From positions 62,001 to 126,000 of the forward strand of contig JABLUY010000001.1 in the NCBI GenBank assembly GCA_013306675.1: a DNA stretch of 64,000 nt, given 5' to 3'. The notes beneath the pieces were generated by a model. It was not told the origin of the DNA. It ran no database searches and saw only the letters and a program-made list of their open reading frames with translations. Shown here in pieces: positions 7,987-63,333 of the stretch (positions are counted from its first letter, which is position 1; each line of letters begins with the position of its first letter). Source of the stretch: Thraustochytrium sp. TN22. Taxonomy: Eukaryota; Sar; Bigyra; Thraustochytrida; Thraustochytriidae. A program made the translations under genes and the position numbers.

Positions 7987-8123
7987 CAGCCACGCGCGGG
8001 CCACGCGCGGCGACGCGAGTCAGCACAGATTGAAGTCGGCGCTTGGGCGCTTCGGCAGCGCAGCAGCAAATCACGAATCTCGCTTTGGGCTTGAGGTGGG
8101 CGACGGGCAAGGGCGAGCGAAAG

Positions 8124-14791: not shown

Positions 14792-14944
14792 GGTAAACGC
14801 GCGCGCACACCCACCCTCGTTTACGGCCTGCCCGGCTACGCTTCTCGCCGTCGCCGCCGCGCGCCGCCGCCATTGCGCCGCCCGGCCCTTCAAGTTTCAA
14901 GTTCAACTTGCACTGCACGGCGCACCGTGACTCGCAGGTCCGGC

Positions 14945-15119
14945 GAGTCCGAGTCCGAGTCCGAGTCCGAGTCCGAGTCCGAGTCCGAGTCCGAGTCCGA
15001 GTCCGAGTCCGAGTCCGAGTCCGAGTCCGAGTCCGAGTCCGAGTCCGAGTCCGAGTCCGAGTCCGAGTCCGAGTCCGAGTCCGAGTCCGAGTCCGAGTCC
15101 GAGTCCGAGTCCGAGTCTG
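14945..15119. repeat. (GAGTCC)n hexanucleotide satellite, ~29 copies
   Basis: An almost perfect hexamer array. It is open in several frames on both strands (SE, RV, RT dipeptides), creating false ORFs. The same hexamer on the opposite strand (GGACTC) appears four times just upstream of the IQ/Sfi1 gene, near 39030-39055. The array sits 240 bp upstream of the ankyrin gene start. Confidence 0.9.
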
Positions 15120-15360
15120 GCTAGATTGTGTCGTCACTGCAGACTGGGTCGTCTCCGCAGACTGGCACGCGCAGAACTTGACTCGAAACCAAAGGCAAAC
15201 CCGAACATAGGAGCGGCGCGGGAGCGCTCCCACGGCGAGCTCGGCGCGAGCGCAGACGACGGCGGCCTGGCGAGCGCCACGCCGGGGGCAGACCGCGAAG
15301 CGCGGCGCGCTTGCTTGAACCAAGCTGCGTGCGCGCGCGCGCGAGACCACGGCGGCCAGG

Positions 15361-27100: not shown

Positions 27101-27390
27101 GATGCCAGCGAAGGCGCAACCCCTGCCGCGGGCACATCTGGGCTGGCGGAAGTCTCGCTGCCGGCGCTGCTCGCCGCGTGGATGTCCTCCAGGTTGACGC
27201 TCTCCTCCAAGGAGACTATCCTGGCCACGGGCGGGGCGCTGGGGCTGAGATGGATGAAGCCGTCACTCTCTTGCGCCACAGGCGAGGCTTCAGAGACGAG
27301 GCCGAGGGGGGGCGTCCCGCTGTTGGGGCCTGCCTTGGCCGCAACGGGCAGACTCCGCGCGCCCCGCTGCTCCTCACTATCGTTGTTGCC

Positions 27391-27458
<68 letters not shown>

Positions 27459-28869: not shown

Positions 28870-30094
28870 GCCGCCGGTGCCGGCCGGAGAAGAGAAGAGA
28901 CCTACCTCACGAGCCCGCCGGGGAGAGCGAGCTTGTCTGATGAGAGGAGCCTGAGAGGAGAGTTTGTCACGTCAGACAAGCCGCGCTTCGCCCCCGAGTC
29001 GTCGACGTCCCTGTCTGTCTGGCTGGCTGTCTGGCCCAGTGGCACAACTCAAGGCAAGGCTGCCCCTGGCCGCCGCCGCCGCCGCCGCTGCCGCCGCCGC
29101 GCCTCTCCGTTCTGCCCGCCAGCGCGCGCGCCGGCTCCGCCGAGCGCCCGCGCGGCCGCTCCCACCCTGGCTCAGGCACGCCCGCCTGCGCGGCGGCCGG
29201 GGGCTCCACGCCGCCGGATGCACGGTTCGCACGACAGCGCCTCCGGGACTGCGTCGGCCGTCGCCGCGGCCTCCGCCTCGGCCTTGGGCCCGCCGCGCCG
29301 CCGCGCTCGCCGCGCGTCGCGGAGCTTGCCTGCCTCGCGCCTCGCGCCGGCTGGCTGCGGCGCGATGGGGGTTTGCTTGCCGGCGCCTTCGAACTTGGCA
29401 CGGAGCGTTTTCAAATTTCGAATTCAACGTCGAGGCTGGCTGCTTTCAACTTACATGATGGCGCCCCCGCCGCCGCGCACTCTCGCGCGCTGCCCCGCGG
29501 GCTGTGCAGCGCCGCCCGCGGCAAGCTAGCAAGCCCGGCGCGGTCCGGGGGTGCAGAACGAGTTGGAGTGCAAGGCGGCCCGTTACGGTTCGGGGCTCCG
29601 TCAGCGCTGACCAGAGTCTGACAGTCAGTCGTGCGTGCGCGGGCCAGCGCGGCTGCAGTGCGAGCCTGCGGCGGCGACTCTGCCAGTGGGTGGCAGCGGC
29701 GGCGGTGGGAGGTCAGTGAGTGCTCAGGCTGCCCGGGGCCCGACCACGGGGAGTGAGTGGAGGACGCGGCGAGCCTTCGCCGTAGCCTCGAGCATGATTT
29801 GGGAGCGTAGCGGCACAGCTGCTGCAGTCCGCCTTGGCAGTGAGTAAAATTGGGACGCGGCCCGGCGACTGCTGGACATCGGTGGCTCCTCGTTCAAGGT
29901 CAATGCACAGGAGAGCGCACGCCGTCTTCTTTTTTTTAAAGGGGGGCTGGTTGGAGGAAGGCAGGAGAACGGGGGGGGAGAAGCGCGCGTCAAACCTGGT
30001 GAATATACACTTCGTTGCCTGGTGAGCGCAGAGCCCGCGACGGCACAAGGGCGATGCTTTATAAAAACCTTGGAAAAACGTGACTGAGTCAGTC
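28870..30094. other. Intergenic region between the two patched-like genes
   Basis: About 1.2 kb without a supportable gene. It contains the 5' flank of copy A, including CCAGTGG at 29036-29042, GC-rich simple sequence, and the 3' flank of copy B. Confidence 0.5.
29036..29042. promoter_or_regulatory. CCAGTGG core 167 nt upstream of patched-like copy A
   Basis: The sequence TGGCCCAGTGGCAC lies 167-173 nt 5' of the ATG at 28869. It matches the core found upstream of copy B and three other secretory-pathway genes. Confidence 0.3.
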
Positions 30095-33000
30095 TCATAC
30101 TCGAGTGGCGCCTCGCAGACGCAAGGCTGTCCTTGGCCAGTGGGCTAGAAGACGACCGACCACGCCAGTCTGGTGGTCACCTGCATCTTCCTCGCGAGAG
30201 ATCGTGGCGTTGTCCTCTTGACCACGGCGACAGAGAAGGGGGCGGAGCTTGGCAATGGCGGCGTAGGCGAGCACGAGTGCCGGTATGAGAAAGAAGACGG
30301 CAAAAAGGAGGGAGAGCACGGTGTTGATGGCAATGATCATGCCGAAATCGTTGAAGACCTGGATCTCGCAAAAGGTGAGGATGACGGCGGCACCGGCGGT
30401 GGTGACGGCGCCAAAGAATATGGAGGGGCCGGTCTGGCCGAGGGTCTGGCGCGAGCGGGCGAGAAGATCGGTCTGCGGGGCCTGGTGGAAGGAGTGCGCG
30501 AGGTGTAAGCTGTAGTCGACGCTGAGGCCGGCCAGGATGATAATGGCAAGCGCCTCGATGGCGCCAAAGTCGCGACCCATCATGACGAGCAGAATGCCGA
30601 GAAGCGTGGTCAAAATGAGCGCGATAGTGAGGGTGGTGAGCACGGCGATGGTGACATTGAAGCTGGTGAAGACGAGAATGGAGGTGAAGGCGAAGACAAA
30701 GCTGATCGCGGCGGCCAGGAGCGTGCCACTGATGATGGCGAGCTCCGTCTCGGAGCGCGCCCACAGAAAAGAAGACTGTCGCGCCTCGCTGTCCCAGCTC
30801 TTGATGGTGGCCTCCCACAGCTGGTAGTACTCGTCGGCCTCGGCGGCCGGCGAGAGGTTGTCGATGTGCGTGAGAACCTGAATGCGCATCATCACTACGT
30901 GGTTGTCTTCGTCAAAGACGATGTTGTAGCGCTCGCTGTTGCCGTTGGAGGTTCCGACGACAAAGGTCAGCAGGGCATTCTCAAAGGCGTCGAGATCCGT
31001 CATGGGGAAACTGACGCTGGAGGTTGCGAGGAAGGTAGCAAAGTCCCGCATGAAGCAGTTCTGCACCCTGCGCACGAGCAGGGAGTTGGTGGAGGTGTTG
31101 ACCTCGGCCTCGAGATGATCGCACATTTGCACAATGCGGTTCTGCGTGGACAAGAGGTCGTCCAGCTCGTACGCGAACCAGGACACATCCACCTGAGCCA
31201 CCTGGTCGTCGCTGAGCTGCAGGAACTGCGGATCCGGCGTGCTGCAGTCATCGCCGAGCCACGCAAGGTAGCAGGCGCACGTCGGGTTTGTGTAGGTTGC
31301 GGTCTCCGAGCACTCGCCATGGCCGCTGCACTCGCATTCCGGGGCGGGAAAGGTGGGCGCGCGCGTGGGCGCGGGCGTTGTCGGGCTCGCCGTCGTGGGC
31401 AGCATCGTGGGCTCCGGCGTTGTGGGCGTAGAGGTGGTGGGAACAGGCGTTGGCCCAGCCGTTGTCGGCCAGGTCGTGGGCGACATAGTTGTCGGGAAGG
31501 GCGTGGGCTGCAGCGTTTGCGCCGGCACGGGCGCGCTCACTTCTACATCGGTGACGTCCGTGGCGGTGCTCAGCTCAGCACCCAAATTGTTCGCGGTGGT
31601 GGAGCTATAGTCGGCAATCACCACCGAGACGGCACCCGTGGCCGGGTCTTGGAAGACGAGGGAGCTGTCGACGCCATTCGCCGCCAGAATTTCGGCCGCG
31701 GTCTGCCCGGACGCTAGGCGTCGGCGGGCACCGGCGCCCGCGCCACCCGCGTAGGAGACAACCAAGGGCTTGCCGTAGGCGAGCGTGCCTGCAGCCTTGG
31801 CGGCGTCGAAGGCCACACCTCCCTCCACGGAGACCGCGAAGTGCTGGCCGCTTGCCACGGAATCCGCGCCCGTGCTGGTCCCGTCCTCCACAAGCAGAAG
31901 CTGCAGACCGTCATAACGGGTCCCGGTATTTGTGAGCTTGGTGTCGAGGCCGCAGGACGACGGCGCCGTGTCATCCTCGCGAACGATGGTCGCGCTCGTG
32001 CCAATGGCGACACCCGTGGTGCATAGATCTTCCGTCGACGTGATGAGCGCGGTGCCAGTCGCGCGGATGTAGCCAGAGCTAGGACCGGTCGTGCCGAGGT
32101 GGTTGATCAGTACGGCGTCGTCTGCGATGAGCACGAAGGCCGGCAGGGTGGGCGGCGGCACGATATGCGTGGGAGACGCTGTAGGTAGCGGTGTCGTGGG
32201 CGACGCCGTCGTCGGGAACTGCGTTGGAGTCTTCGTGGGTTCGCGCGTGGGCGCCGCAGTCGTGGGCGCGGCCGTGGTGGGTTCGAACGTGGGCGCGGCC
32301 GTGGTAGGCACGGCCGTGGTGGGCGCCTGGGACGGCGCCGCCGTGGTAGGCGCCAGGGACGGCGCCGCCGTCGTGGGCGCTGGACTCGGCGCGTGCGTTG
32401 GGGCACGTGTCGGCATCTGAGTGGGTCTCTGCGTGCAATACACGGCGTTACCGCTCAAATCCAGACAGAGAATGGCGCTGGGCGGGACGTCGTCAACCTC
32501 GAGCGTTGGGCTCGAGATGTCTGAAAAGTGGTCCGAATAAAGCTGCAGCAGCAAGCCGATGTTGGTGGAGTCGCCAAAGATGTTCGGGAGCTCGTCGGAG
32601 AGCTGGACTCGGGCGGACAGCTGTGATGCCAGCACTGCGCCGATCACACAAATGGCAGAGACCAGCAGGATGCGCCGCCTGTATACGAAGGGCGCGACGC
32701 GATAATAGAAGAAGCGAACCAGGCGGTCGTTTTCGTCGACGTGAGCCGCCAGGGTCATGTCTGACGAAACCAAGTCCGAACTTGAAGCCTCTAGCGCTGG
32801 CTGTGGATGGGCCGGTTCTTCCCGGGGCGTGGCGGCCGCGAGCGAGGGGGGGTTTGCCAACTCATTGGGATGGCTCACCGGGGCGGCCAGGGGCAGGGCG
32901 GCGCGTGCAGCGGCGAAGCGGGCGGAAACGCCCTGGGCGCCATGATGAATGCGCGCCTTCGCGCTCTGAGCGCCGCGTTGCATGCGGGCCCAAGGGAGGC

Positions 33001-34498
33001 TCGCACTCGCCGCAGCCAGGGCGCGGCTACAGGGCGAGCAGGAACACCAGGCCGGGAGCTTGAAAAGGAAGTAGCGATCGAGAATGACGAGCGTGAGGGG
33101 CATGGTGACAATGATGAAGAGGTAGTTGACCATGACGAGCACGCCCATGAACTGGCCGAACTCGCGAATGGGCTTGATGGGGCTGGCCACATTCGCCAAG
33201 AAGGAGGCCGCTGTGGTGACCGAGGTGACGAGCGTGGCGCCGGCCGCGCGGCGCCAGGTCCATTGCAGGCGGTCCGCCATCCCCAGGCCCGGTAGGTGAC
33301 GGCTCTGCTTCCAAATGTCAACGAAGATGGCGAAGTCGTCCGCGCCGATGCCCACCAGCACGAAGACGCTGGTGAAGTTGAAGACCATCATGATCTCGTT
33401 GCCCAGCACGAGCCGGTAAATGATGTAGGTCACGGGGAAGGCCATGATGATGGAGAAGCAGGCGGCGAGCGAGAGGAAGAGCGAGCGCGAGTGCCAAACC
33501 ATAAAGACGAGCACCAGCGCTAGCGAAATGGATGCGAAAATGACGTCGTTCAGAATCAGGTACTCCACCTCGACTTGGCTCAGGTAAGTGTTGTACCAAA
33601 GCACGCGCGTTTCCTGGCCGAGGTCGCTGTGGTCCAGGAACCACGGCAGCAAGGTGTCGCGGAAGTAGTCCTGCATCGCAGCGCGGTCCTTAAAGACCAG
33701 CGTGAAGGTGGACCGCGTCAGGCTCACGTTCTTGCCCGAGTCCAGGTATTCGCGCGGCAGGAACGCCAGATCGCTCGCGCTCGCCAGCCTGGTTACGTAG
33801 TCAAAGACCGAGTCGATGTCCGCCAGCGTGTCGCCATTGCCGTCTAAAATGGCTACCCCGTTCTCGAGGGTTGGATAGAAGTAGTTCAGCACCGACTCTG
33901 CTTCGGGGCAGACGGGCTGCGCGTTCGTGCGGAAGCAGTACTGGTAGTACACTTCCTTCTCAAACTTGCGCTCGAAGGCGCGGATTGCCTCCAAGCGCTC
34001 GTTCGTGAAGATCGACTCGCAGTCCCCGCAATAGTACATGACCTCCACAATCTGATAAAGTGTCACGGTCGGGATGTTCCCGTTCTCGTCTGGAACCGTG
34101 TACAGGTTGCGCCGGATGCGCCGGTTGCGCCGGCGGCGGTCATTGACTGCCGTCGGCGGCTCGTACCCATCGAGCAGGTCCTCCAGCTCCTCGTACTCTA
34201 CAGACGCCGGCTCGTCCGAGCTCAGGTAGCTCGTGAAGTCGCTCTCGATGGTCACATTCTTGGCCTCCGTCAGGAAGATGGACACGGCCGCCAGGGCCGG
34301 CAGCGCCGCCGTCCACAGCGCCAGCAGCAGCACCGGCCGCCGCACCACCAGCCGCCACAGCCGGCCCAGCGCGGGCCTCCCCGTTTCCTTGTGCGCCTGC
34401 GCCTGCACTCGCGCGACTAGCAACCCGTCGGCCGCCTCCTCGGGCCCACCGTCGACATGGTACGCCCCGCGCGCGTGCAGCGCTGCAAGTCTCGTCAT
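30095..34498 (-). CDS. Patched/Dispatched-like RND protein with sterol-sensing domain, copy B
   Basis: 1,467 residues from an ATG at 34498. It is collinear with copy A: TM1, loop, 5-TM sterol-sensing-type block (~310-480) with VGIGADDFAIF, a second TM, one long Pro-Thr ladder (~700-775), a globular segment with SGQTAAEILAANG, a shorter Pro-Thr stretch, an EGF-like module (CECSGHGECS) and the final TM block (~1250-1420) with GLSVDYSLHL. The membrane blocks are close to copy A, while the stalk repeats differ in number and composition, as expected for fast-evolving linkers. The Ser/Asn tract and the Asp-run tail of copy A are absent. The pair arose by tandem duplication, and both look intact. 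Confidence 0.85.
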   Translation of the reverse strand: MTRLAALHARGAYHVDGGPEEAADGLLVARVQAQAHKETGRPALGRLWRLVVRRPVLLLALWTAALPALAAVSIFLTEAKNVTIESDFTSYLSSDEPASVEYEELEDLLDGYEPPTAVNDRRRRNRRIRRNLYTVPDENGNIPTVTLYQIVEVMYYCGDCESIFTNERLEAIRAFERKFEKEVYYQYCFRTNAQPVCPEAESVLNYFYPTLENGVAILDGNGDTLADIDSVFDYVTRLASASDLAFLPREYLDSGKNVSLTRSTFTLVFKDRAAMQDYFRDTLLPWFLDHSDLGQETRVLWYNTYLSQVEVEYLILNDVIFASISLALVLVFMVWHSRSLFLSLAACFSIIMAFPVTYIIYRLVLGNEIMMVFNFTSVFVLVGIGADDFAIFVDIWKQSRHLPGLGMADRLQWTWRRAAGATLVTSVTTAASFLANVASPIKPIREFGQFMGVLVMVNYLFIIVTMPLTLVILDRYFLFKLPAWCSCSPCSRALAAASASLPWARMQRGAQSAKARIHHGAQGVSARFAAARAALPLAAPVSHPNELANPPSLAAATPREEPAHPQPALEASSSDLVSSDMTLAAHVDENDRLVRFFYYRVAPFVYRRRILLVSAICVIGAVLASQLSARVQLSDELPNIFGDSTNIGLLLQLYSDHFSDISSPTLEVDDVPPSAILCLDLSGNAVYCTQRPTQMPTRAPTHAPSPAPTTAAPSLAPTTAAPSQAPTTAVPTTAAPTFEPTTAAPTTAAPTREPTKTPTQFPTTASPTTPLPTASPTHIVPPPTLPAFVLIADDAVLINHLGTTGPSSGYIRATGTALITSTEDLCTTGVAIGTSATIVREDDTAPSSCGLDTKLTNTGTRYDGLQLLLVEDGTSTGADSVASGQHFAVSVEGGVAFDAAKAAGTLAYGKPLVVSYAGGAGAGARRRLASGQTAAEILAANGVDSSLVFQDPATGAVSVVIADYSSTTANNLGAELSTATDVTDVEVSAPVPAQTLQPTPFPTTMSPTTWPTTAGPTPVPTTSTPTTPEPTMLPTTASPTTPAPTRAPTFPAPECECSGHGECSETATYTNPTCACYLAWLGDDCSTPDPQFLQLSDDQVAQVDVSWFAYELDDLLSTQNRIVQMCDHLEAEVNTSTNSLLVRRVQNCFMRDFATFLATSSVSFPMTDLDAFENALLTFVVGTSNGNSERYNIVFDEDNHVVMMRIQVLTHIDNLSPAAEADEYYQLWEATIKSWDSEARQSSFLWARSETELAIISGTLLAAAISFVFAFTSILVFTSFNVTIAVLTTLTIALILTTLLGILLVMMGRDFGAIEALAIIILAGLSVDYSLHLAHSFHQAPQTDLLARSRQTLGQTGPSIFFGAVTTAGAAVILTFCEIQVFNDFGMIIAINTVLSLLFAVFFLIPALVLAYAAIAKLRPLLCRRGQEDNATISREEDAGDHQTGVVGRLLAHWPRTALRLRGATRV

Positions 34499-35108
34499 GC
34501 CGCGCGCCCTCGCAGGCTCTGCGCGCAGGCCCTGCGCGCAGCTCTGCGCGCAGAGCGCTGACTCAGGCTGTGAGTTAGCTCGCCGCCGAGCGGCGCGCGC
34601 GCGAGTCCGGTCTGACGCGCGCGCTGCGAGCGGCGCGCGCTGCGGCTTGCCACTGCCAGTGGGAGGTGGCCGGGGCGGCGGTGCCAGGCACTTGAGTCGC
34701 CCTCGCTCGCCTCGCTCGGCGCTGGCTAGAGTGGCTAGTACCAGCTAAGCCTGTCAGTGTCAGAAGCACTTGCGCCCGGAGGCGGAGACGATGACGGTGT
34801 GGTGGTGGGTACCACAGAGGCAAGACCCGGGAAGCGATTGCTGCGATTCCGAGCGAGTGCCGCGAGCTCAGGCTGGCGACGATTGAGCATGTGGTGGCTT
34901 GCGACCACGACAGAAGCTTGCGCTTCGTAGCTTTGCTTGGTGGCTCCGAGCCGTCGCTCACGTGAAAGTGGGAGGCAGGCCTTGATCTCTTCGCGGGTGG
35001 ACTGAAGTGGCGACAACTTTGAGTTGGAGCGACGTCAGAGCGCGGTTCAATTGGCCCCAAGGGGCTCGCTGCGATGCACATGGCTAGCGATGTACGCATG
35101 CAGTGCGC
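34499..35108. other. Intergenic region upstream of patched-like copy B
   Basis: No gene seen. It contains the 5' flank of copy B with the CCACTGCCAGTGG element, then AT-poor unique sequence up to the ankyrin gene's stop codon. Confidence 0.5.
34650..34662. promoter_or_regulatory. CCACTG-C-CAGTGG inverted repeat upstream of patched-like copy B
   Basis: A 13-bp inverted repeat around one base, 152-164 nt upstream of the ATG at 34498. It contains the same CACTGCCAGTG core as the sites at 7330 and 38312. Confidence 0.35.
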
Positions 35109-36371
35109 TCAGCTGTCGGTGCTTGCATCTTCTTCGTCAGCACTGTCTTCGTTGGCGGCTTTGTCGGAATCGCCGCCATCGCCATTAAGCTCGGCGAGGC
35201 GGTCTTTGATGAGTGCCTCGGCCTCGACGTTAATGGCGAGGTCGAGCGCGGAGTGGCCGTAAATGTCTTTGCAGGCGAGGACCTCGGGCGTGGCAACGGC
35301 AAGGAGCGCCTCGAGGATGGCAACGTTGCGGTGCTTCTCGGCAGCCCAAATGAGCGCATTCTTACCGAGCGAGCGGTCGCGCGTTGCAAGATTGGGGTCG
35401 GCCTCGAGAATGGCGTGCACGCAGGGGAGATGGTTCCAGCGACTGGCGAGCATGAGCGCGGTCCAGCCGCCCTTATCGCGCGCGTCAACGTCGGCGCCGC
35501 GATCCACGAGCAGGCGCGTGGTCTTGTAAAAGCCCCAGCGCGCGGCGTGCATGAGCGGGCGTCGGCGCGCCTTGTCCTGGGCCTCCACGTCGGCGCTGTA
35601 GTCGCAGAGCATCTTGGCGACGCGAAAGGCACCGCCCTTGCAAGCCATGGCAAGCGCGCTGGCGCCGCAGTCGTCTTGCAGGTCAACGTTGGAACTCCAG
35701 ACGAGCAGCTCGACAGCCTCATAGTGGCCCTGCTGCGCGGCGATGATGAGCGCTGTGCGGCCCTGCGCGTCGCGCGCGTCGTGCTCGCATTGCTTGAGCA
35801 CCTGCAGCACCTCGGTGTGGTTGTTGTGCGCCGCCCACATGAGCGCGGACATGTGGCCATCGTGGTCGCGCGCCTCGGCGTCGGCGCCGCGCTCCAGCAG
35901 CGCGCGGACCACCACGGCATGCCCGCCGCGCGCGGCGGCCAGGAGCGGCGTGGCGCCTGTCCAGTGATGCGCCGGGTCCGTGCCGGACATGGGCGGCACG
36001 CGGTGCTCCATCACCTCCAGCTCCTCCTCCTGTGCGAAGTCGAGCACCTCGAGCACCTGGTCTAGCTTGCCCTCCTTGCTCGCCTGTAGGAGCTCCTCTC
36101 CGGTCTCGCGTTGCACCTGGAGCCGCTCCTGCTCCTCCTCGCGCCGGATGCGCGAGGCCTCGGCGCGTAGCTCGGCCTCCGCCTCCTCGCGCCGCCGCGC
36201 GGCCTCGCGCTCATCACGCTCCCGCGCCGTCAGCGCCTCCGTCGCGCGCCGCTCGCGCGCTGCGTTCACCTCCTCGGCGATGTCGCGCTCCGCCGCGCTC
36301 TCCAGGCTGCTCAGGCTCTGCGCGTCGTCGTCCTCCGCCGTGCGCGCCCTAGCGCTGTCGCTTGCCGCCAT
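35109..36371 (-). CDS. Ankyrin-repeat protein with N-terminal coiled coil
   Basis: 420 residues from the ATG at 36371 (MAASDSARAR), which sits directly behind a GGCGC run. An upstream ATG at 36464 in the same frame would add 31 residues. Residues ~15-110 form a strongly charged Arg/Glu coiled coil (ERDEREAARRREEAEAEL). From ~145 there are seven to eight ankyrin repeats (ATPLLAAARGGHAVVVRALL; TALIIAAQQGHYEAVELLV). The acidic C-terminus is rich in Asp, Glu and Ser. No catalytic or membrane segment is present. It is probably a cytoplasmic adaptor. It is shorter than, and not an obvious tandem copy of, the giant ankyrin protein at 15-21 kb. Confidence 0.8.
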   Translation of the reverse strand: MAASDSARARTAEDDDAQSLSSLESAAERDIAEEVNAARERRATEALTARERDEREAARRREEAEAELRAEASRIRREEEQERLQVQRETGEELLQASKEGKLDQVLEVLDFAQEEELEVMEHRVPPMSGTDPAHHWTGATPLLAAARGGHAVVVRALLERGADAEARDHDGHMSALMWAAHNNHTEVLQVLKQCEHDARDAQGRTALIIAAQQGHYEAVELLVWSSNVDLQDDCGASALAMACKGGAFRVAKMLCDYSADVEAQDKARRRPLMHAARWGFYKTTRLLVDRGADVDARDKGGWTALMLASRWNHLPCVHAILEADPNLATRDRSLGKNALIWAAEKHRNVAILEALLAVATPEVLACKDIYGHSALDLAINVEAEALIKDRLAELNGDGGDSDKAANEDSADEEDASTDS

Positions 36372-36375
36372 TGCG

Positions 36376-36395
36376 CGCCGCGCCGCGCCGCGCCG
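36376..36395. repeat. GGCGC pentamer run 5 nt upstream of the ankyrin/coiled-coil start
   Basis: Sense-strand GGCGC repeats abut the ATG at 36371, supporting this ATG as the real start by analogy with the IWS1 gene. Confidence 0.6.
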
Positions 36396-36836
36396 GCTGC
36401 GCTCGCCCAGCCTCTGGGACTGACTGTGAATGCCTCGGATTTGATTCTTGTTCGCCGTGACCATGGTTGCCTGTGGCCACGTCCCGGCGCAGAGAGGCCC
36501 GCCTGACCCGACAACGGAGCCCAACGGAAGCGTGTCGGAAGCGTGTCACGCACGGTCTGACGGTCAGAGCCCGGAGCAAGGGGCCTCCACGGCAAGGCAG
36601 GCTCATCATGCGAGACGCTGCGCACACGGACTCCTCTTCGTCTTCGCGGTGGGAGCGCAACCCAGCAAGTCACACAGACCAAAACATCATTTGATAGCGG
36701 AAATACCACCCAGAGAGCAACGAGGTTTGACTTGGAGCGCAAGGGATATCATGCCATACATCACCGCACGGCCTGGACTCGCAGTCCAAGCGCGGCGCCC
36801 ATTGCTTGCGGTCCGCTCCGCTGCACTCCGCCGGCC

Positions 36837-42165: not shown

Positions 42166-43839
42166 TCAGAGACGCAAGAGCGTGTCGATGAGGTCATTGG
42201 TCAGAATGCGGTGCGGGTCGTAGCGCGAGCGTAGGGACTCGAAGTCCTGCAGCGGGTAGCGGCGCGCCAGACGCTCGCGCTCACGGGCGACGTCAGCCTC
42301 GGCGCGCGGCACCTCGATCTTGGCCCAGTGTGTGGCAATATCAAAGTCGCCCTCCTCCGCGACGGCGTTGAGCAGCCCCTTGTAGGATTCGAAGGCGTGC
42401 TGAATTTCTGCGCGCGCAGACGGGTCCTGCGTCGGCATGTACATGATGATGCCGACCCAGGAGAAGAGCGCGTCCTTTGGCGCCACCGGGCCGCCCGGCG
42501 CCACGTGCACAGGGCTCATGGGCGCCGTGGAGCCGCAGGTCCAGCGCTGCTCGATGGGCGCCGGCGCCGGCACATCTTCGGTCTTGATGCGCTCCAGGAG
42601 CGCCTCAACAAAGGCCAGGTCGCGGCCGTCCGGCGCCTCGCGCGTACCGCACGGCAGCACGACCTCCAGCACGAGCTGCTGGCCACCGCAATCGAAGGCG
42701 AGCACATTTGAGGAGTCGTCCACAACGCCGCGCACCTGAGATCGCTTCCAGAACTCGAGCTCCGCCGCGTTCACACGCCGCACGTGCTCCGGATCGAGCC
42801 CACCGGGGCCGGCCCGCAGCAACCAGTCGCGCATCTCGCCAAATCCGACGGCCTCCATATTCGCCGGCAGGCCATTGGGGAACGCGTCCGGGTTCTCCTC
42901 ACACAGCGAGCGCAGGAGGGCCGCCATGGGCTCCGTGGGTCGCTCCGCGCCGCCGCGGGCCGGCGCCTCGCGCGCGGGCTCCGACGCGGGCGCCTGCGTG
43001 GGCTGACTCTGCACGACGACGAGATGATCCTGGTATGGCAGCCACATGTAGCGCTGGTGCTGGTAGGTCTTGATGCGATCGGCGTGGCTGCGCTTGGCTT
43101 CGCCCGCCGACACCACGAGAGTGTCCTCGGCGAGACGGTGCGCATCGACACACTGCAGCGTGAACTGCGTGACGACACCGAAGCAGCCGAGGCCGCACTT
43201 GACCAGGTCAAAATCCGGGTCGCCGCGGCGCAGGCGGAGCGTGCCGCGCGCGGGCGTGACGATCTCCAGCGCCACAACCTGCTCCTCGACCGGCGGCAGG
43301 CCGGCGCCCGTGCCGTGCGCGCCCACCTGCGTGAATCCACCGAGCTGTTGCTCGTTGATGCTGGCCAAGTTCTGCAGCGTGAGCCCGTGCTCGCGCAGCT
43401 CATCCAGCACCTGGCCCACCAGCGCGCCGCTCTGCACCGTCACCTGCTTGCGCTCCTTGTCCACCTCCAGCACCGCGTTCATGTTCTCCAGCGTCAGCAG
43501 TCTGCCTTTTGCGAACGCGATCCCGTTCGGCGAGAGCCCGGACCCCATCACGCGCAGCCGCTCGCGCTTCGCCTGCGCCTGCGCTACCGCGGCGGCCACC
43601 TCCTCCACATTGCGGGGCCGCAGCACCTCCACGGGCCTGCACGAGTGCGTCCCGGACCAGTTCTCCACCACCTCGCTGCCGCCCTCGGCCGCCGGCTCGC
43701 CGCCCTGGTCCGCGCCTGCCTCGCGCGCGCGCGCGGCGCCGTCCTGCCCGCCGCCGCCGCGCGCCATCGCCCAGCCGCCGCCGGCCGCGGCCGCCAGCGC
43801 GCCGCCGGCCGCGGCTGCGCGTCGCCACGCGCCCTGCAT
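42166..43839 (-). CDS. GLDH: L-galactono-1,4-lactone dehydrogenase (plant-type, mitochondrial)
   Basis: 557 residues from the ATG at 43839 (MQGAWRRAAAAGG), an Arg/Ala-rich mitochondrial presequence; the open frame upstream starts at GTG inside GGCGC repeats. The FAD-binding PP-loop region carries VMGSGLSPNGIAF, then NEQQLGGFTQVGAHGTGAGL. The position of the covalent-FAD His of the wider family is Leu here (GLSPNG), as in plant GLDH, so FAD should be non-covalent. The C-terminal domain matches plant GLDH closely: FDCGGQQLVLE, PAPAPIEQRWTCGS, FSWVGIIMYMPTQDP, HWAKIEVPR and DPHRILTNDLI. The enzyme would oxidise L-galactono-1,4-lactone to ascorbate and pass electrons to cytochrome c at the inner membrane. 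It is divergent from the DGQHR gene. Confidence 0.93.
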   Translation of the reverse strand: MQGAWRRAAAAGGALAAAAGGGWAMARGGGGQDGAARAREAGADQGGEPAAEGGSEVVENWSGTHSCRPVEVLRPRNVEEVAAAVAQAQAKRERLRVMGSGLSPNGIAFAKGRLLTLENMNAVLEVDKERKQVTVQSGALVGQVLDELREHGLTLQNLASINEQQLGGFTQVGAHGTGAGLPPVEEQVVALEIVTPARGTLRLRRGDPDFDLVKCGLGCFGVVTQFTLQCVDAHRLAEDTLVVSAGEAKRSHADRIKTYQHQRYMWLPYQDHLVVVQSQPTQAPASEPAREAPARGGAERPTEPMAALLRSLCEENPDAFPNGLPANMEAVGFGEMRDWLLRAGPGGLDPEHVRRVNAAELEFWKRSQVRGVVDDSSNVLAFDCGGQQLVLEVVLPCGTREAPDGRDLAFVEALLERIKTEDVPAPAPIEQRWTCGSTAPMSPVHVAPGGPVAPKDALFSWVGIIMYMPTQDPSARAEIQHAFESYKGLLNAVAEEGDFDIATHWAKIEVPRAEADVARERERLARRYPLQDFESLRSRYDPHRILTNDLIDTLLRL

Positions 43840-43884
43840 GCTCTCCGCGCGCCTCCTGCCGGCGTCCGCCTCGGGCTTTGCCGC

Positions 43885-43917
43885 CCGCGCCGCGCCGCGC
43901 CGCGCCGCCGCGCCGCC
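43885..43917. repeat. GGCGC pentamer run ~46 nt upstream of the GLDH start
   Basis: GCGCC repeats on the plus strand (GGCGC on the sense strand), in the short region shared with the divergent gene. Confidence 0.6.
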
Positions 43918-44021
43918 TCCGCCTGCGCCTCGCCGCCGCACGCCGCGCTTCAGGCGAACCTACGCTGCAGCTCGGGCAAGCCCGACTCGCCGTCGCCGTC
44001 ACCGTCGGTGCCGGCGTCCCC

Positions 44022-54424: not shown

Positions 54425-54840
54425 ATGCGCGAGCTTGAGCCCGAGCTTGCGCGAGCTTGCGTGAGCTTACGGGAATCTTTCCTGAAACGGCTGCGTGCTT
54501 CGGCCTTCGGAGCGGCGCAACGACTGATGACGCGCACTCCCCGCCTTGATGTAACCGTAACCTGGCACCGGCGGTAGATTCACGCCGTCTGCTACGGAAT
54601 GCAGAAGCAAGCTTGCCGAAGGAGACGCCTCGTATGGACTACTTGCGCGAGCTTGCCAGCTGCGCGAGCTTGCGTGAGCTTGCGTGAGCTAGGAGTATAG
54701 TTTTCCCTGAAACGGCTGCGAGCTTCGGCCTTCGGAGATTCGAGCGGCGCAACGTCGGAAGTTTGCTGCCACCGCTACTTCTGACGCGCACCGAAGGTCC
54801 GCCTTGATGTAACTGGAACCGGCGGTTAGCTTCACGCAAA
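54425..54840. repeat. Tandem duplication (~190-bp units) upstream of the PstS-GPCR gene
   Basis: Two imperfect direct copies, about 54425-54600 and 54640-54840. Shared blocks include GCGCGAGCTTGCGTGAGCTT, CCTGAAACGGCTGCG, GCTTCGGCCTTCGGAG, CCGCCTTGATGTAAC and an ACCGGCGGT end. They lie 170-590 bp upstream of the ATG at 55012, so they may carry duplicated regulatory sites. Confidence 0.7.
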
Positions 54841-55011
54841 GCTGGTCCGGCGCAGTGTGACACTTGCGCTCCAAGGCAAGCAGATGCAGGTAAGAAGAAG
54901 CTTCCCCGAGCCAGCTCCACTCTGCAAGGAGGCGCAACACAAAAAGAACCCGACCGGCAAGTGCGGGAGAGTGACGGGCGTCGTTTCTTGGATGGCGGCG
55001 CCGCGCTGCGT

Positions 55012-58000
55012 ATGAACAGAACCAAATCGAGGCTCGACGAAATCATGCTGGTGCTACTTCGCCTCAGTGCCGTGGCTGTGGCAATGGCAATGTGTGCAGG
55101 CAGGGTCCGGGCTTCGCTTCCTGCAAGATGCCCTGCGATGGAGCTCGGGGTGTTGCCCAAAGAAAGCTGTCTCATCGAGCTGGCCGTATGCCTTAACGAG
55201 TCGCTTGCAGAGGTCTCGCCGGAGCGCACGATGGATGGGGAAAAGATTGTTCTGCAAGCCGCGGGAGCTACTTTCCCGCTTCGATTGTACCAGGAGGCTA
55301 TCTTTGCGTACAGTTTTGAAAATCAGTCCGTCGCGGTCTCCTATGCCGGCATAGGCAGCGGCAAAGGCAAATGTCGCATTAAAAGCTACGTGGACGCCTG
55401 CGACAACGTCTGTGGCGAGTACTCTGACTCCAATGAGGAGTACTTCGTGGATTTCATTGGGTCTGACTCATTGCTCACGGACAGCGACTATGGGGCGTAC
55501 CCTGACCTCCAAATGTTTCCAGCCGTGGGCGGCGCTGTGGTGCCTATCTACAATCTACCCGGGCTCGATGCGCTCAATCACACCCTCGTGCTCACCAAGG
55601 AGGTGCTTGCACAGATATTCCGCAAATGCAATGAGGCGGATGCGAATCTCACATATGCGTGCCAGCCTGGGTCGATTCACACGTGGAACGACGAGCGCAT
55701 CAAGGCGATCAACCGGCACGCAAGCGACGCTGCCCTCACCGCAGCAATCGAGGCCGTCCTCGATGCTGCGGGCGACATTGAGCTCGTTGTGCGTGCCGAC
55801 GGCTCTGGCACGAGTGAGATTTTCAAAGGTGCCTTGGCTCTTTTCGAGGAAGCCTTTGCTACGCAATTCGAAGGCCATATAGGATCCTCGAATGACCACT
55901 ACCCCGCACTGGCAGTGAAACATGACGGAAACAGTGGCGTTGCAGGCCATGTTTCGGCCACCGTAGGTGCCATTGGCTACTCCGTCTTGGGCGAGGCGCT
56001 GGCTCTCGACCTGCCACGCGCACTCATGGCCACGACGAGCGGAGCCCTCCCGGTTGAGGCCACTACAACGACTGTGGCGAACGCCATGGTCGAACGCGGC
56101 CTGGACTTTGGCACGGCGAACCCAGACCGCCTTAACGCCGTCATTTCGGACGCCTCGGGCTCTCAGGCTTGGCCCATGGCGGGCTACACGTACTTTGTGG
56201 TGCGCAAAGAAACCACGCGCCCAGGCGCCTCCTGCGCAAACCGCAAGGCACTGCAGGATTTCCTGCTTTGGTTCTACACGCATGAGGTGCCGCAAAGCAT
56301 CGCAATCTCGCTGGGCTTTGCACCCCTCCCAGACGAGTTGCGCGCGATTATTGTGGCGAGAATTCAGCAGGATCTTTACTGCGAGGGCAACATTCTCTAC
56401 GAACCGGTGATCGACACATCACCGATGATCAGCTACAGCGGCGCCATGGTCTTCCAAAACGTCATCAAGCAGTACGAGCTTGCGTACTCTGTCATTGCGC
56501 CTGAAACACGATTTGCGGACGAACTTACCAGTGCAGGCTCCGTGCAGGCCATTGAGGCCGTCGCTGCTGGAAGGCATTCGATTGCCATGGCGCTCTCGTC
56601 CAATGCTGAAGCAGGCACCCTCATTCAAGAAGGAGCCAATATTGCTGCTTTCTCATATGTGGGCATTGGCTTGGGTGTCTCCGTCAACTTTTGCTCGTCC
56701 GGCGAGGACAATCTCGCCGCTTTCTGCGACGAGGTTACAAGCTTCAATGCCTCGGTCGGTTTGCTGGCCGGGATACTCAGCGGTTCAGTCGCCCGCTGGG
56801 AGGACCCTGAGATTCAACGCTTCAATCCGACGCTCGCGGCGAAGATTGCCGACCACAGGGCGAGCGATCCAAGCTGGGATGTTCCGGGTATCACCGTCTT
56901 CGGCACAGCCGAGTCGGGTGACGAGCTCGTCAGTCGCTTCGTCTCGCTCGTTGCAGCGCTCTCCGGCGATGAAAGCTTCCAGCTCGCATTTACGGCACTC
57001 AAAAGGAATCAAGAGGATGTGCGCTCGGCTGTCGCCACAACAGCATTCTCCATTGCCTACAACCCGGCCATTGGTGATGCGAACCAGCGCCATGCCTTCT
57101 TCGCCAGGGTCACACTTGACGACGGCGCCACCTACACGCTACCGAATACGAACGGCGTGGCCGCCTGCGCCACCGCCGACTCGTATGACGAAGTCACGGG
57201 CGTTTTTAATTTCCAAAATGCAGAGAGCGGCGACTGCTACCCGCTCGCAGACGTCCTGAACCTGGTTGTACGAACGCAGCACGAGGGCGATATCGAGTGC
57301 GGGAACGAAGGCGCTGGCTACGCGTACACGCTCTACTTCGGCTTCCTTCTCTTGAACGTGTTAAGCAAGGGCAACGATGCGTCCGTCGAGGAGCCGCTTG
57401 AAAGGCAGGGCCTGGTCCCACTCTCCGCGCTGAATGCAAGCCTAGGACGCAACTATGAGACACTGACCGCCATCTCGTGCAATGGCATGTCCATTCTCGC
57501 TCCTGCACATGACATGCAGCTCATTCCTGCTCCTTTGGTGGGCTTCAGCATCGCCATCACGTGCCTTCTACTATCAGTGTTCTCGTGGCTCGCCGTCTGG
57601 GTAAGGAGGCACCGCCGCCAGAAGATTGTCATGATCGCATCGCCGCTGTTCTTGCAGCAGATGTTGCTCGGAGCAGCCATCGCAACGTCCGCCATCATTC
57701 CACTGGCGATGCAAGACGACGGCACCTTTCATGACATGGAAGAATCCTCAGAAGCGGCCGTCGTCAATGACGCCATCTTTCCGGGCATTGATATTGCCTG
57801 TGCTCTCGCACCACTTCTCTACTCAGTGGGATTTACCATCCTCTTCTCGTCGCTCTGGCTCAAGACCTGGCGGCTCGGCCGACTGTTCCTGAATCCGCGG
57901 CTCAAGCGCAGACACATCACCAATCGCGCCCTGCAGAGCTACCAGATCATGTTGATGGTCGTGGTTCTCGGGCTCAATGGCATCTGGATCTTGGTCGATC

Positions 58001-58527
58001 CGATGCACTATGAGCGGGTCGTCACGGTTTCTGACTCCTCAGGCCGCGCGCTCAAGTCGTACGGTCGCTGCTACTCGTCACGGTCATTGTATCTTATCGC
58101 GCCACTCGCCTTCGCTCTCATCCTCTCTCTCGTTTATGGCCTCTTTCTCATGTACCAGTCGCGGAGCATTCCGTCCGAGTACGGCGAAGGCCGCTACATT
58201 GCATTTGCACTCACCACTGCATTTGAGTCCCTCGTCCTAGGCATTCCAGTTCTCTTTCTCGCCCATGACAACCCGACGGCGTCCTTCGTCATCAAAATGG
58301 CCCTGGTGGTCATCACGAGCGCTGGCACCGTTGGTTTTCTTCTGGTGCCAAAGGTGTGGCACGTCTATTCGAAACGCTCGCGTCCACACCGCACCGACAA
58401 ATCCTCCTCGTCAGCCATCACGTCACATTCAACACATGTGCGCGAGACTACGGGGCAGCCAGCCAAGGATGCCGCACCTCAAATTTCCGTGCATACCGGC
58501 GATGGCAATCATTATCTGTCAACGTAA
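55012..58527 (+). CDS. PstS-like phosphate-binding domain fused to a class C GPCR
   Basis: 1,171 residues from the ATG at 55012, with a signal peptide (VLLRLSAVAVAMAMCAG). Residues ~75-455 match bacterial PstS and keep its phosphate ligand motifs in order: AGATFP (~84), GIGSGKG (~113), GSDS (~150) and VVRADGSGTSE (~259-269), the R-x-D-x-S-G-T loop. Residues ~470-800 look like a second PstS-type fold (MISYSGAMVFQNVIKQYELA; WEDPEIQRFNP) in which these ligand loops are not evident. Seven helices follow (~841-1112): LVGFSIAITCLLLSVFSWLA, LALAPLLYSV-like TM3 with FSSLWLKTWRLGRLF, and a TM7 ending FLLVPKVWHVYS, the class C FxxPK signature. A ~60-residue Ser/Thr-rich tail completes it. It is probably a plasma-membrane receptor sensing phosphate or a related oxyanion. 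No introns are apparent. Confidence 0.88.
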   Translation: MNRTKSRLDEIMLVLLRLSAVAVAMAMCAGRVRASLPARCPAMELGVLPKESCLIELAVCLNESLAEVSPERTMDGEKIVLQAAGATFPLRLYQEAIFAYSFENQSVAVSYAGIGSGKGKCRIKSYVDACDNVCGEYSDSNEEYFVDFIGSDSLLTDSDYGAYPDLQMFPAVGGAVVPIYNLPGLDALNHTLVLTKEVLAQIFRKCNEADANLTYACQPGSIHTWNDERIKAINRHASDAALTAAIEAVLDAAGDIELVVRADGSGTSEIFKGALALFEEAFATQFEGHIGSSNDHYPALAVKHDGNSGVAGHVSATVGAIGYSVLGEALALDLPRALMATTSGALPVEATTTTVANAMVERGLDFGTANPDRLNAVISDASGSQAWPMAGYTYFVVRKETTRPGASCANRKALQDFLLWFYTHEVPQSIAISLGFAPLPDELRAIIVARIQQDLYCEGNILYEPVIDTSPMISYSGAMVFQNVIKQYELAYSVIAPETRFADELTSAGSVQAIEAVAAGRHSIAMALSSNAEAGTLIQEGANIAAFSYVGIGLGVSVNFCSSGEDNLAAFCDEVTSFNASVGLLAGILSGSVARWEDPEIQRFNPTLAAKIADHRASDPSWDVPGITVFGTAESGDELVSRFVSLVAALSGDESFQLAFTALKRNQEDVRSAVATTAFSIAYNPAIGDANQRHAFFARVTLDDGATYTLPNTNGVAACATADSYDEVTGVFNFQNAESGDCYPLADVLNLVVRTQHEGDIECGNEGAGYAYTLYFGFLLLNVLSKGNDASVEEPLERQGLVPLSALNASLGRNYETLTAISCNGMSILAPAHDMQLIPAPLVGFSIAITCLLLSVFSWLAVWVRRHRRQKIVMIASPLFLQQMLLGAAIATSAIIPLAMQDDGTFHDMEESSEAAVVNDAIFPGIDIACALAPLLYSVGFTILFSSLWLKTWRLGRLFLNPRLKRRHITNRALQSYQIMLMVVVLGLNGIWILVDPMHYERVVTVSDSSGRALKSYGRCYSSRSLYLIAPLAFALILSLVYGLFLMYQSRSIPSEYGEGRYIAFALTTAFESLVLGIPVLFLAHDNPTASFVIKMALVVITSAGTVGFLLVPKVWHVYSKRSRPHRTDKSSSSAITSHSTHVRETTGQPAKDAAPQISVHTGDGNHYLST

Positions 58528-61000: not shown

Positions 61001-62566
61001 TTAGACGGCCTTCTTGGTGATGCGGCGGCGTTTGGCGAGCTGCTTCTCCATCTCGCGGCGCTTCTCGGAGGGGCGCGCGTAGAAGCGCTCGTCCTTTTCC
61101 TGGGAGTGCTGTGGCTTGTAGATGAACTCGACTTGGTTGGCCTGCGGGATACGCGCGCGCGAGGAGCCCTGGTCCTTCTTGGTCTGGGCCTCCTCGACGA
61201 CCTTTTGGATGCGGTCCTTGCGGGACATGGGAGCGAGCTCGGAGAGGCCGCGACGGGCGGGCGAGCCTGAAACTGCGGCAGCGGCAGCGGCAGCGCCGCC
61301 GGGGCCCGCCGGGCGCGGGCGGCGCGGGGATGGGGAGCGCGAGCGCATGGGCCTGTCCTCGTCGTCGCCGTCGCCGTCGCCGCGGCGCATGGGATCCATC
61401 TCGGGCGCGCGGAAGATTTCGCGCGCCCACTGCTGCATGAGCGCGGCGAGGATTTGTTTGTTGGACTCAAGCTCAGAGGGGTGCTGACGCAAAAAGTTGA
61501 CGACCTTGCCGAGGCCGCTCCGGCGCAGGTGGTCCTGGTCAATGTGCAGCTGCGGCAGCAGCGCGATGACGCGCGTGCGCAGCGCCTGTGCCGGCAGCGA
61601 GCGATCTACCTTGTTGGGATGAAGCCACTTGGTGAGCACGTCTAGTCCGTTCTCCTCGAGAAAAGCGGTGCGCGCGTCCGTTGGGCGCAGCTTGGCCTCG
61701 ATGTCGTCGAGCATGCGCAGCTTGTGCACGGCCGGCTTCAGCCTGGCGCGCGCGTCGCGGTCGCGGTGGTACGCACGCTCCATGCCGAAGATGAGATTGG
61801 CGATCTCCTTTGCAGCTGGGTTGTCCGTACCTGTCTCCTCGCCGTCGCCGCCCTTCTTCTTGCGGTTCTTGTTGCGGCGCGCGGCCATCTGCTTGAGCAC
61901 CTTTTGGAACTCGGTCTGCTCCTCGCCCTCGACCGCCTCGTTCTTCTTCTTGCCGCCTGGCCCGCCCTCGTCGTCCGAGTGCTCCTTCTGCTGGGCGTAC
62001 TCGTCCAGGGCCTCCTGGTCGTCCTCAGCATTGTCGATGAAGTTGTCGTCATCGTCGTCGGACTTGCCGCCGCCGCTCTCGCGCGCCGCGGCGCTTGCCC
62101 TTTGCGCGCGATTGGCCGGCTTGGCCTTCGCCGCGGCCTTGCCCGCCTTGCGCTTCTTGGTCAGCGTCTTGCCCTTGCCCTTTTTTCGCGCCGGCCCGTC
62201 ATCCTCGTCCGACGAGTCCCCTGAGGACGACGAGCTATCCCCGGACGACGACGAAGACGACGACGACGACGACGACCCGGAGCTGCTCGAGGAGTCGCTC
62301 CCATCGCCGCCGCCCTTGTTGAGCACCTTCTTCTTCTTCTTCTTGTTCTTGCCGCGAGCAGTCACCACCTTCTTCTTGGTCAGCTTCTTGCCCTCGCCGC
62401 CGGCCTCGCCGGCCTCGCCGGCCGCGCCGGCCTCTGCCTCTGCCTCTGCCTCAGGCCCGGCCTCCGCCTCTGCCGCGCCCGCGCCGCCCTCCTTCTGCCG
62501 CTGCTCCAGCTCGCGCCGCACGCCCTCGTCGCCGGACTCCCCGTCGCTGCCGCCCAGCGTCTCCAT
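61001..62566 (-). CDS. IWS1: Transcription elongation factor IWS1/Spn1
   Basis: 521 residues from the ATG at 62566, directly behind a GGCGC run; the open frame continues to 62806 only through that run. The N-terminal ~240 residues are disordered, acidic and Ser/Asp/Lys-rich, as in IWS1 elsewhere. Residues ~247-400 are the TFIIS N-terminal-type (TND) helical domain with IWS1 hallmarks: GLDVLTKWLHPNKVDRSLP, LRRSGLGKVVNFLRQHPSEL, NKQILAALMQQWAREIF. A basic C-terminus ends in RRRITKKAV. Its role is to bind Spt6 and RNA polymerase II during elongation. The identification is firm. Confidence 0.93.
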   Translation of the reverse strand: METLGGSDGESGDEGVRRELEQRQKEGGAGAAEAEAGPEAEAEAEAGAAGEAGEAGGEGKKLTKKKVVTARGKNKKKKKKVLNKGGGDGSDSSSSSGSSSSSSSSSSSGDSSSSSGDSSDEDDGPARKKGKGKTLTKKRKAGKAAAKAKPANRAQRASAAARESGGGKSDDDDDNFIDNAEDDQEALDEYAQQKEHSDDEGGPGGKKKNEAVEGEEQTEFQKVLKQMAARRNKNRKKKGGDGEETGTDNPAAKEIANLIFGMERAYHRDRDARARLKPAVHKLRMLDDIEAKLRPTDARTAFLEENGLDVLTKWLHPNKVDRSLPAQALRTRVIALLPQLHIDQDHLRRSGLGKVVNFLRQHPSELESNKQILAALMQQWAREIFRAPEMDPMRRGDGDGDDEDRPMRSRSPSPRRPRPAGPGGAAAAAAAVSGSPARRGLSELAPMSRKDRIQKVVEEAQTKKDQGSSRARIPQANQVEFIYKPQHSQEKDERFYARPSEKRREMEKQLAKRRRITKKAV

Positions 62567-62568
62567 GG

Positions 62569-62610
62569 CGCCGCGCCGCGCCGCGCCGCGCCGCGCCGCG
62601 CCGGGCCGGG
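62569..62610. repeat. GGCGC pentamer run adjacent to the IWS1 start
   Basis: About seven sense-strand GGCGC units, grading into GGCCC, begin 3 nt upstream of the ATG at 62566. Confidence 0.65.
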
Positions 62611-62659
62611 CCGGCTCGGGCCGGGCGGGCCGGGCCGCGGGCGCGGGAGGACCTGCGCG

Positions 62660-62691
<32 letters not shown>

Positions 62692-63333
62692 TGCCGGGAC
62701 GCGACCGCGCGGATCGAACGAGCTCTGGCGTCGGGCGAAGCCTGAGCGCGCCGCGGCGCCGATGCGCGGTTGGGCCGCTTCTCCGCGGCTTGGGCCGCTT
62801 TCCCATAACAAGCTAGCAAGCTTGCAAGCGAGCTCGCTCCAGCTAGCTAGTGTCGCAAGCTTCGCAAGCTTATGGTAGCAAGCACAATTTGCACGACGAA
62901 GGGATGTGCCAAGCAAGCAGCAACGAGCAGCAAGCGTCCAGCAGGCTTCGGAGGCGCAACGCGAGCATACTAGTAAGTGGCACCGGCCTCGCGGGTGCTT
63001 GCTCGCACCGGGTCACGGCAAGACGTGGAGGGGAACTGGAGAACCGGGAAGTGGTCGCAAGTGGTCGGTCGTTGGGTCGGCGTCAGGTCCGCGTCGGTCG
63101 TGGCCGATCGGCGTGTTCTCGCTTGCGTTCTCTCTCATGGTCTCTCACTTGAAAGTTTTCATCGATCGTTCGGCGGACGTGGAGAGCGTCGTCAGCTTGC
63201 TGTCATGTCACGGCACGGCACGTGGCCAGGATTTCTCGCGTGGTCACGGTCATGACGGTCAGGTGATGACGATGCCGATCGAGCCGGGCACGGCACGTGG
63301 CCAGGATCTCTCGCGTGGTCACGGTCATGGCGG
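62611..63333. other. Intergenic region upstream of IWS1
   Basis: No gene seen. Repeated GCAAGCTT motifs occur near 62817-62870 (AAGCTTGCAAGCGAGCT, GCAAGCTTCGCAAGCTT). The right part contains a tandem duplication that reaches into the next gene. Confidence 0.5.

Follow-up and report, generated by a model that had tools for sequence, protein, structure and literature searches.

Can a eukaryotic cell read external phosphate through a binding protein of bacterial type that has been placed on a G protein-coupled receptor (GPCR)? This question is raised by one gene in a stretch of 64,000 nucleotides from Thraustochytrium sp. TN22 (the window, to which all coordinates and strands refer). An earlier reading made from the letters alone (hereafter the sequence-only reading) had described the product of this gene as a phosphate-binding module like bacterial PstS joined to the seven-transmembrane (7TM) part of a class C GPCR, and had proposed a surface receptor for phosphate or similar oxyanions. 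To our knowledge, how microbial eukaryotes sense extracellular phosphate is poorly known. A paper on a calcium (Ca2+) phosphorus-sensing pathway in diatoms is cited in PMC11085791. On the results presented here, the best explanation of the gene is a cell-surface phosphate receptor in which a first domain (D1) would bind phosphate, a second (D2) would relay the signal and the 7TM domain would signal through G proteins, and we consider this reading probable.

Gene structure and domain order

The gene occupies 55012-58527 on the plus strand and encodes 1171 amino acids with zero internal stops, within a stop-to-stop frame of 1239 codons (54808-58524). From the N-terminus, a signal-like stretch is followed by D1, D2 and a class C 7TM domain (Table 1). 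Pfam searched with the whole protein up to E 10 returned two families only, PBP_like_2 (1.3e-22, in two stretches, the best being residues 79-423) and 7tm_3 (3.4e-32), and the fusion is confirmed at the level of the predicted protein. The motifs that had been singled out occur in the order given, AGATFP, GIGSG, GSDS and RADGSGT in D1, and FLLVPK (residues 1109-1114) at the end of the last transmembrane helix (TM7). Codon-position GC is similar across the three domains, as expected of a single gene: GC at third codon positions (GC3) is 0.674 in D1, 0.683 in D2 and 0.721 in the 7TM domain, with a flatter composition in the tail past residue 1120. For each of the three domains, it is in the reading frame of the receptor that codon use comes nearest to five other genes of the window. 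Residues 11-29, the strongest N-terminal hydrophobic stretch, are consistent with a signal sequence as judged from hydropathy, and all seven N-glycosylation sequons lie upstream of the 7TM domain, one of them within the signal region. No second copy of the gene was found in the window by tblastn with the gene masked (best match E 0.69), and no tRNA or Rfam match was found in the window DNA.

The phosphate pocket of D1

For profile searches, D1 was taken as window 55228-56391 and D2 as window 56386-57540. Searched apart, both halves matched the NCBIfam PstS family TIGR00975 (D1, 4.3e-43, 147.6 bits; D2, 2.5e-08, 33.4 bits), each under the curated cut-off of 205 bits. D1 alone also matched PBP_like_2 (PF12849) at 6.4e-18, with 65.9 bits over a cut-off of 27, while D2 alone reached 7.4e-05 and 23.1 bits, under that cut-off. 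Judged by these profiles, D1 and D2 are PstS-derived domains and not PstS equivalogs.

Phosphate in E. coli PstS is held by eight ligand residues, T10, F11, S38, D56, R135, S139, G140 and T141. We aligned the ectodomain with 62 PstS relatives (alignment A4), picked from 166 fetched loci, a PstS-like frame being present in 166/166. All eight ligand positions in D1 are identical to those of E. coli PstS (residues in Table 1), and D263 corresponds to E. coli D137; D56 and D137 both occur as PstS mutants in titles of PDB entries in the Foldseek match list. Seven of the eight positions show no variation among the 62 relatives, and at T10 there are 53 with T and nine with S; for positions 135-141 the lack of variation follows in part from the way the relatives were fetched, with patterns that covered the RADGSGT loop. 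In E. coli PstS, D56 lets the protein discriminate phosphate from sulfate, and since the corresponding D152 is kept here, sulfate is an unlikely ligand; a sulfate receptor was rejected on these grounds. The retention of D152 argues for phosphate or arsenate over sulfate. Of the oxyanions offered by the sequence-only reading, phosphate is the best explanation, arsenate may still be accepted, and sulfate is improbable. A chance match of motifs was also rejected, given the Pfam and TIGR00975 E-values and the score of D2 against shuffled sequences (see below).

Structure prediction agrees with the proposed fold. In an AlphaFold2 run on residues 36-840 with 58 PstS rows, the predicted local distance difference test score (pLDDT) of D1 was mostly ~90, with the inserts weaker, and Foldseek placed PstS at the top of its PDB matches to the D1 model (8ods, E 1.6e-23, template modelling score (TM-score) by target 0.87; 2abh, 0.84). 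D1 apparently holds an intact PstS-type phosphate pocket.

A degenerate second domain

The absence of evident ligand loops from D2, also noted in the sequence-only reading, was borne out by an alignment with 31 PstS relatives (alignment A5). Three of the eight ligand positions are kept (S507, S635 and G636) and five are altered (M479, V480, S530, G631 and D637), and the pocket arginine is lost whichever alignment is preferred, because a shift of one residue at G631 would give the neighbouring T632. In the run on residues 36-840, pLDDT in D2 was mostly <50 because the PstS rows inform mainly D1. When D2 was modelled by itself, on 39 further rows of which 38 were PstS and one was D1, it reached a mean pLDDT of 75 and a predicted TM-score (pTM) of 0.73, and ranks 1-17 of its PDB matches were all PstS (TM-score by target 0.70-0.74), with 8ods (1.5e-15, 0.70) and 2abh (0.73) among the top matches. 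On a PstS profile, independently of the model rows, D2 scored 16.6 bits versus 10.0 bits for the best of 1000 shuffles, 547 of which obtained a reported score. By profile, alignment and model, D2 is a diverged PstS-like domain from which the phosphate ligands have been lost.

The 7TM domain and its orientation

The 7TM domain matches 7tm_3 (PF00003) over residues 844-1114 with 112.5 bits against a cut-off of 33.5. Its best match among solved structures is GABA-B2 (7c7q, 7.2e-16), and the six distinct solved sequences at E <1e-10 are all GABA-B2. Class C receptors are marked by an extracellular-loop cysteine pair and a PK motif in TM7 (PMC3727952); here, C930 and C1020 align with the GABA-B2 cysteines of TM3 and the second extracellular loop (ECL2), and P1113-K1114 aligns with the GABA-B2 PK motif. 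The same source describes activation of the GABA-B type as dependent on basic residues where TM3 ends and on an acidic residue in TM6, and it places diatom receptors basal to GABA-B. In the window protein, K951-T-W-R aligns with the GABA-B2 KTWR, giving basic residues K951 and R954 at the end of TM3, and E1059 aligns with the GABA-B2 Asp at the start of TM6. By these marks the domain is class C. The animal-type class C modules, namely the ANF_receptor flytrap and the NCD3G cysteine-rich domain that several subfamilies have, were not found by Pfam up to E 10.

With helix ends set by eye, the counts of Lys/Arg and of Asp/Glu are 5/0, 8/0 and 2/2 in intracellular loops (ICL) 1 to 3, 0/7, 5/2 and 0/1 in ECL1 to ECL3, and 7/2 in the first 37 residues past TM7. 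Most of these charges fit an ectodomain, and with it D1, that lies outside the cell. D1 thus conforms for the most part to an extracellular clam-shell domain, in its fold by prediction and in its orientation by loop charge.

Origin of the binding module

PstS relatives were fetched from genome_contigs by similarity to D1, and the best 80 of at least 587 confirmed matches were retained. A quick tree that combined D1 with 90 PstS placed D1 beside an Anaerolineae sequence (L089), then with L087 and L088, then with L094 of Chloroflexi, with values of 83, 89 and 99 in the SH-like approximate likelihood ratio test (SH-aLRT). The same four sequences were nearest to D1 in a careful tree built from D1, D2 and 38 PstS, in which nested sets of 2, 4 and 5 rows held D1 with 1, 3 and 4 Chloroflexota (bootstrap/SH-aLRT 98/88, 95/80 and 100/99). 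Given this sampling by similarity to D1, and the length of the D1 branch, Chloroflexota is to be read as the nearest sampled group and not as the proven donor. Three of the four (L087, L088 and L089) exceed the TIGR00975 cut-off, and in open reading frames (ORFs) read by eye the pstS gene of L087 is preceded by a sensor-kinase-like ORF and followed by a PstC-like ORF; by score and gene context, the nearest relatives of D1 are true PstS. We infer that the binding module came from a bacterial PstS of Chloroflexota type. Scans with six exact short peptides each, which detect close relatives only, found no relatives in viral_contigs for either the whole protein or the 7TM domain, and none for D1 in genome_contigs. 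Two IMG/VR contigs classed as viral (L007 and L008) carry PstS genes that group as a pair in the quick tree, on a long branch apart from cyanophage PstS.

Cysteines offer a further trace of descent. In D1, C408 begins a long helix late in the domain, and C457 lies near the C-terminal end. Among 133 non-redundant PstS relatives, a pair of this type occurs in eight of nine Chloroflexota rows (not in L103) and perhaps in one of Actinomycetota (L161); six other rows have at least two cysteines in their last 130 residues, among which the D1-type pair was not seen by eye, L114 having the last one. When Chloroflexota and L161 were left out of the profile, the pairs of D1 and of the eight Chloroflexota share columns 322-324 and 368-370, the first D1 cysteine being placed as an insert directly after column 322. 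Two cysteines of D2 hold positions like those of the D1 pair, C763 just before helix 310-331 of the D2 model and C823 in the last strands, and ISCNG near the end of D2 resembles VTCNG in L090. When six cysteines were placed at random, both sites were met within 3 residues in ~1% of trials, a figure qualified by the choice of the sites after they had been seen and by the use of Chloroflexota rows in building the D2 model. A global profile alignment of D2 (probability 0.03) did not place the cysteines, and the local alignment stops just before C763. BLASTP of D1 against D2 gave no significant match (0.19), and a clade of D1 and D2 was neither shown nor rejected in the careful tree (p-AU 0.43), where the D2 end branch measures 10. 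D2 is likely a decayed tandem copy of D1, as the cysteine pair hints.

Known fusions and related systems

The sequence-only reading knew of no characterised example of such a protein. Fusion of 7tm_3 with PBP_like_2 as such is a known kind, and two papers report it. The clubroot genome paper of 2016 (PMC4815078) describes P. brassicae proteins that join 7tm3 with SBP_bac_1 or PBP_like_2 in single coding regions according to transcripts, four of them named phosphate transporters, and a 2012 survey (PMC3251606) lists PBP_like_2 in SPPG_06488, a class C receptor of the chytrid Spizellomyces punctatus, as well as further binding-protein domains in class C receptors of fungi. The window protein would add a third lineage only on condition that it comes from neither a chytrid nor a plasmodiophorid. 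In the searched text of PMC10445921, PBP_like_2 occurs once, in the abbreviation list. The statement in PMC4815078 that such fusions are unique to P. brassicae, with none in other eukaryotic genomes, overlooks SPPG_06488, published four years earlier; that paper also disagrees with itself in its counts, since section 13 names eight fusion genes and section 15 speaks of 'seven proteins'. Searches of one open-licence library, which lacks most subscription papers and all bioRxiv preprints, yielded no functional study of a 7tm_3 and PBP_like_2 fusion. The candidate is less novel than the sequence-only reading held. Four points had no counterpart in that library: the apparently intact phosphate pocket, a second domain that has degenerated and whose cysteines hint at duplication, the kinship of D1 with Chloroflexota PstS, and the argument that the protein is a receptor rather than a transporter.

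GABA-B2 (7c7q, 6uo8 and others) is the closest solved 7TM domain and has the same TM3 and TM6 marks, but its flytrap is single whereas the PstS-like domains of the window protein are tandem. GABA-B lacks a cysteine-rich domain (PMC3727952), as the window protein appears to do, while the flytrap of GABA-B2 is of the ANF_receptor kind (PMC3251606) and that of the window protein is PstS. The P. brassicae fusions resemble the window protein in having 7tm_3 and a bacterial PBP_like_2 in one coding region, with four predicted to act on phosphate; they differ, by their published description (PMC4815078), in being called transporters. In section 20 of PMC3251606, SPPG_06488 is similarly assigned to the glutamate family (class C) of receptors and given a PBP_like_2 domain, but that entry is a domain listing without discussion of ligand, pocket or function. 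Anaerolineae-type PstS of the Pst ABC transporter shares with D1 the fold, the residues that hold the ligand and the pair of cysteines towards the C-terminus, yet bacterial PstS is a soluble transport subunit, whereas in the window protein two such domains in series would be anchored to the membrane as part of a receptor. The calcium-sensing receptor is likewise a class C receptor affected by extracellular phosphate, although in its case phosphate acts at an anion site as a non-competitive antagonist (PMC6795806), unlike a dedicated PstS pocket.

Proposed mechanism and alternatives

We propose that D1, outside the cell, would close on a phosphate ion in the manner of bacterial PstS, as its conserved ligands suggest. 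D2, its pocket lost, would bind no phosphate and would relay the closing movement of D1 to the 7TM domain, perhaps via a dimer contact, thus occupying the place of the animal class C cysteine-rich domain or of a second, ligand-free flytrap. The 7TM domain, to judge from its conserved class C marks, would then activate a heterotrimeric G protein, and the physiological role of the receptor may be to report external phosphate. Some of our results weigh against this proposal: D1 stays under the TIGR00975 equivalog cut-off, has inserts of its own between the ligand loops and sits on a long branch (2.3 in the quick tree and 1.91 in the careful tree), the fold of D2 is partly imposed by the PstS rows of its alignment, and ICL3 and ECL2 do not clearly obey the charge rule. 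The relay of D1 closure to the 7TM domain via D2 is a guess.

The same receptor build could serve another ligand, such as arsenate, phosphonate, the end of a polyphosphate or a small phosphoester, or could use phosphate as a co-ligand only. In its favour, PstS-type pockets can accept arsenate too, and D1 has inserts of its own; against this, D1 retains all eight phosphate-ligand positions, and a PstS pocket encloses a single ion, so that little space is left for esters. Class C receptors may also respond to further phosphorus compounds: one of Dictyostelium, GrlD, has been described as the putative polyphosphate receptor (PMC10445921). On balance, a ligand other than phosphate seems unlikely. 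Slightly less likely is a protein in which D1 binds phosphate and the 7TM domain is silent alone, the protein then acting as a decoy or scavenger, or pairing with another receptor as the silent member of a heterodimer. GABA-B1, which requires GABA-B2 in its heterodimer, is an analogy for a silent partner, and D2 is degenerate, but the PK motif is retained, as is the pairing of a Lys in TM3 with an acidic residue in TM6. Vertebrate class C receptors are constitutive dimers (PMC10445921), which would also suit a partner of this type.

A phosphate transporter or an aid to uptake, as suggested for the P. brassicae fusions, would match the function of bacterial PstS and the name given to four of those fusions from homology (PMC4815078). 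The membrane part is nevertheless a class C receptor domain by its matches to 7tm_3 and GABA-B2, Pfam up to E 10 matched the protein to neither a permease nor an ATPase domain, and PMC4815078 itself wants experimental confirmation of the substrates. This reading was rejected for its lack of a permease domain and its receptor-type 7TM domain, and we regard it as very improbable. That two genes were joined through mis-assembly or a missed intron is scarcely credible: no supporting point was found, 1171 codons run without a stop in one frame with similar GC3 and codon use throughout, and the same type of fusion was independently reported in P. brassicae as single coding regions by transcript (PMC4815078).

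The phosphate receptor may belong to a scattered eukaryotic family, in which a Chloroflexota-type PstS was captured onto a class C 7TM domain and duplicated, and the inner copy lost its pocket and turned to signal transmission; we put this forward tentatively and with clearly less confidence than the receptor itself. If true, it would represent a route to nutrient receptors unlike that of the animal class C flytraps and would give microbial eukaryotes a direct sensor of external phosphate. A candidate receptor with a textbook phosphate pocket is concrete and testable, and it suggests that class C receptors can adopt a bacterial binding protein of known ligand. The clubroot 'phosphate transporters' would merit a second look as receptors.

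Features and neighbouring genes

Table 1. Parts of the candidate receptor gene, with residue numbers in the protein and positions in the window
Feature	Residues	Window positions	Strand	Basis
Whole coding frame, requiring no intron	1171 aa + stop	55012..58527	+	Translation; codon-position GC alike across three domains
Putative signal sequence, hydrophobic core 11-29	1-35	55012..55116	+	Hydropathy only
D1, PstS-type phosphate-binding domain	76-456	55237..56379	+	PF12849, TIGR00975, AlphaFold2 and Foldseek
D1 ligand loop AGATFP; T87, F88 = E. coli T10, F11	84-89	55261..55278	+	Alignment A4
D1 ligand loop GIGSG; S116 = E. coli S38	113-117	55348..55362	+	Alignment A4
D1 ligand loop GSDS; D152 = E. 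coli D56	150-153	55459..55470	+	Alignment A4
D1 ligand loop RADGSGT; R261, S265, G266, T267 = E. coli R135, S139, G140, T141	261-267	55792..55812	+	Alignment A4
D2, degenerate PstS-like domain, 3/8 ligand positions	459-830	56386..57501	+	TIGR00975, Pfam sub-cut-off, AlphaFold2 and Foldseek
Class C seven-transmembrane domain	836-1120	57517..58371	+	PF00003, GABA-B2 7c7q, loop charges
Short C-terminal tail and stop	1121-1171	58372..58527	+	Translation

Elsewhere in the window, two neighbouring membrane proteins of Patched/MMPL type with a sterol-sensing domain (24133-28971 and 30098-34744, both on the minus strand) are tandem paralogues, with 60% identity over ~450 residues and 47% over ~940. 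Ankyrin-repeat proteins are encoded at 15319-20922 (plus strand; 22 Ank_2 stretches, 1868 codons) and 35112-36545 (minus strand), and a perfect 6-base tandem repeat, CGAGTC x 29 with a 100% match, occupies 14944-15117. A frame of 2056 codons at 8034-14201 (plus strand) matches a PAN domain once, with no further family at E 0.001, and its product is rich in Ser, Ala, Val and Thr. A D-arabinono-1,4-lactone-oxidase-like flavin adenine dinucleotide (FAD) enzyme (42169-43959, minus strand) and a protein with a Med26/TFIIS N-terminal domain (61004-62812, minus strand) both fit a eukaryote. The GC3 of these two genes (0.88 and 0.87) exceeds that of the receptor gene (0.67-0.72), and one ankyrin gene has 0.72.

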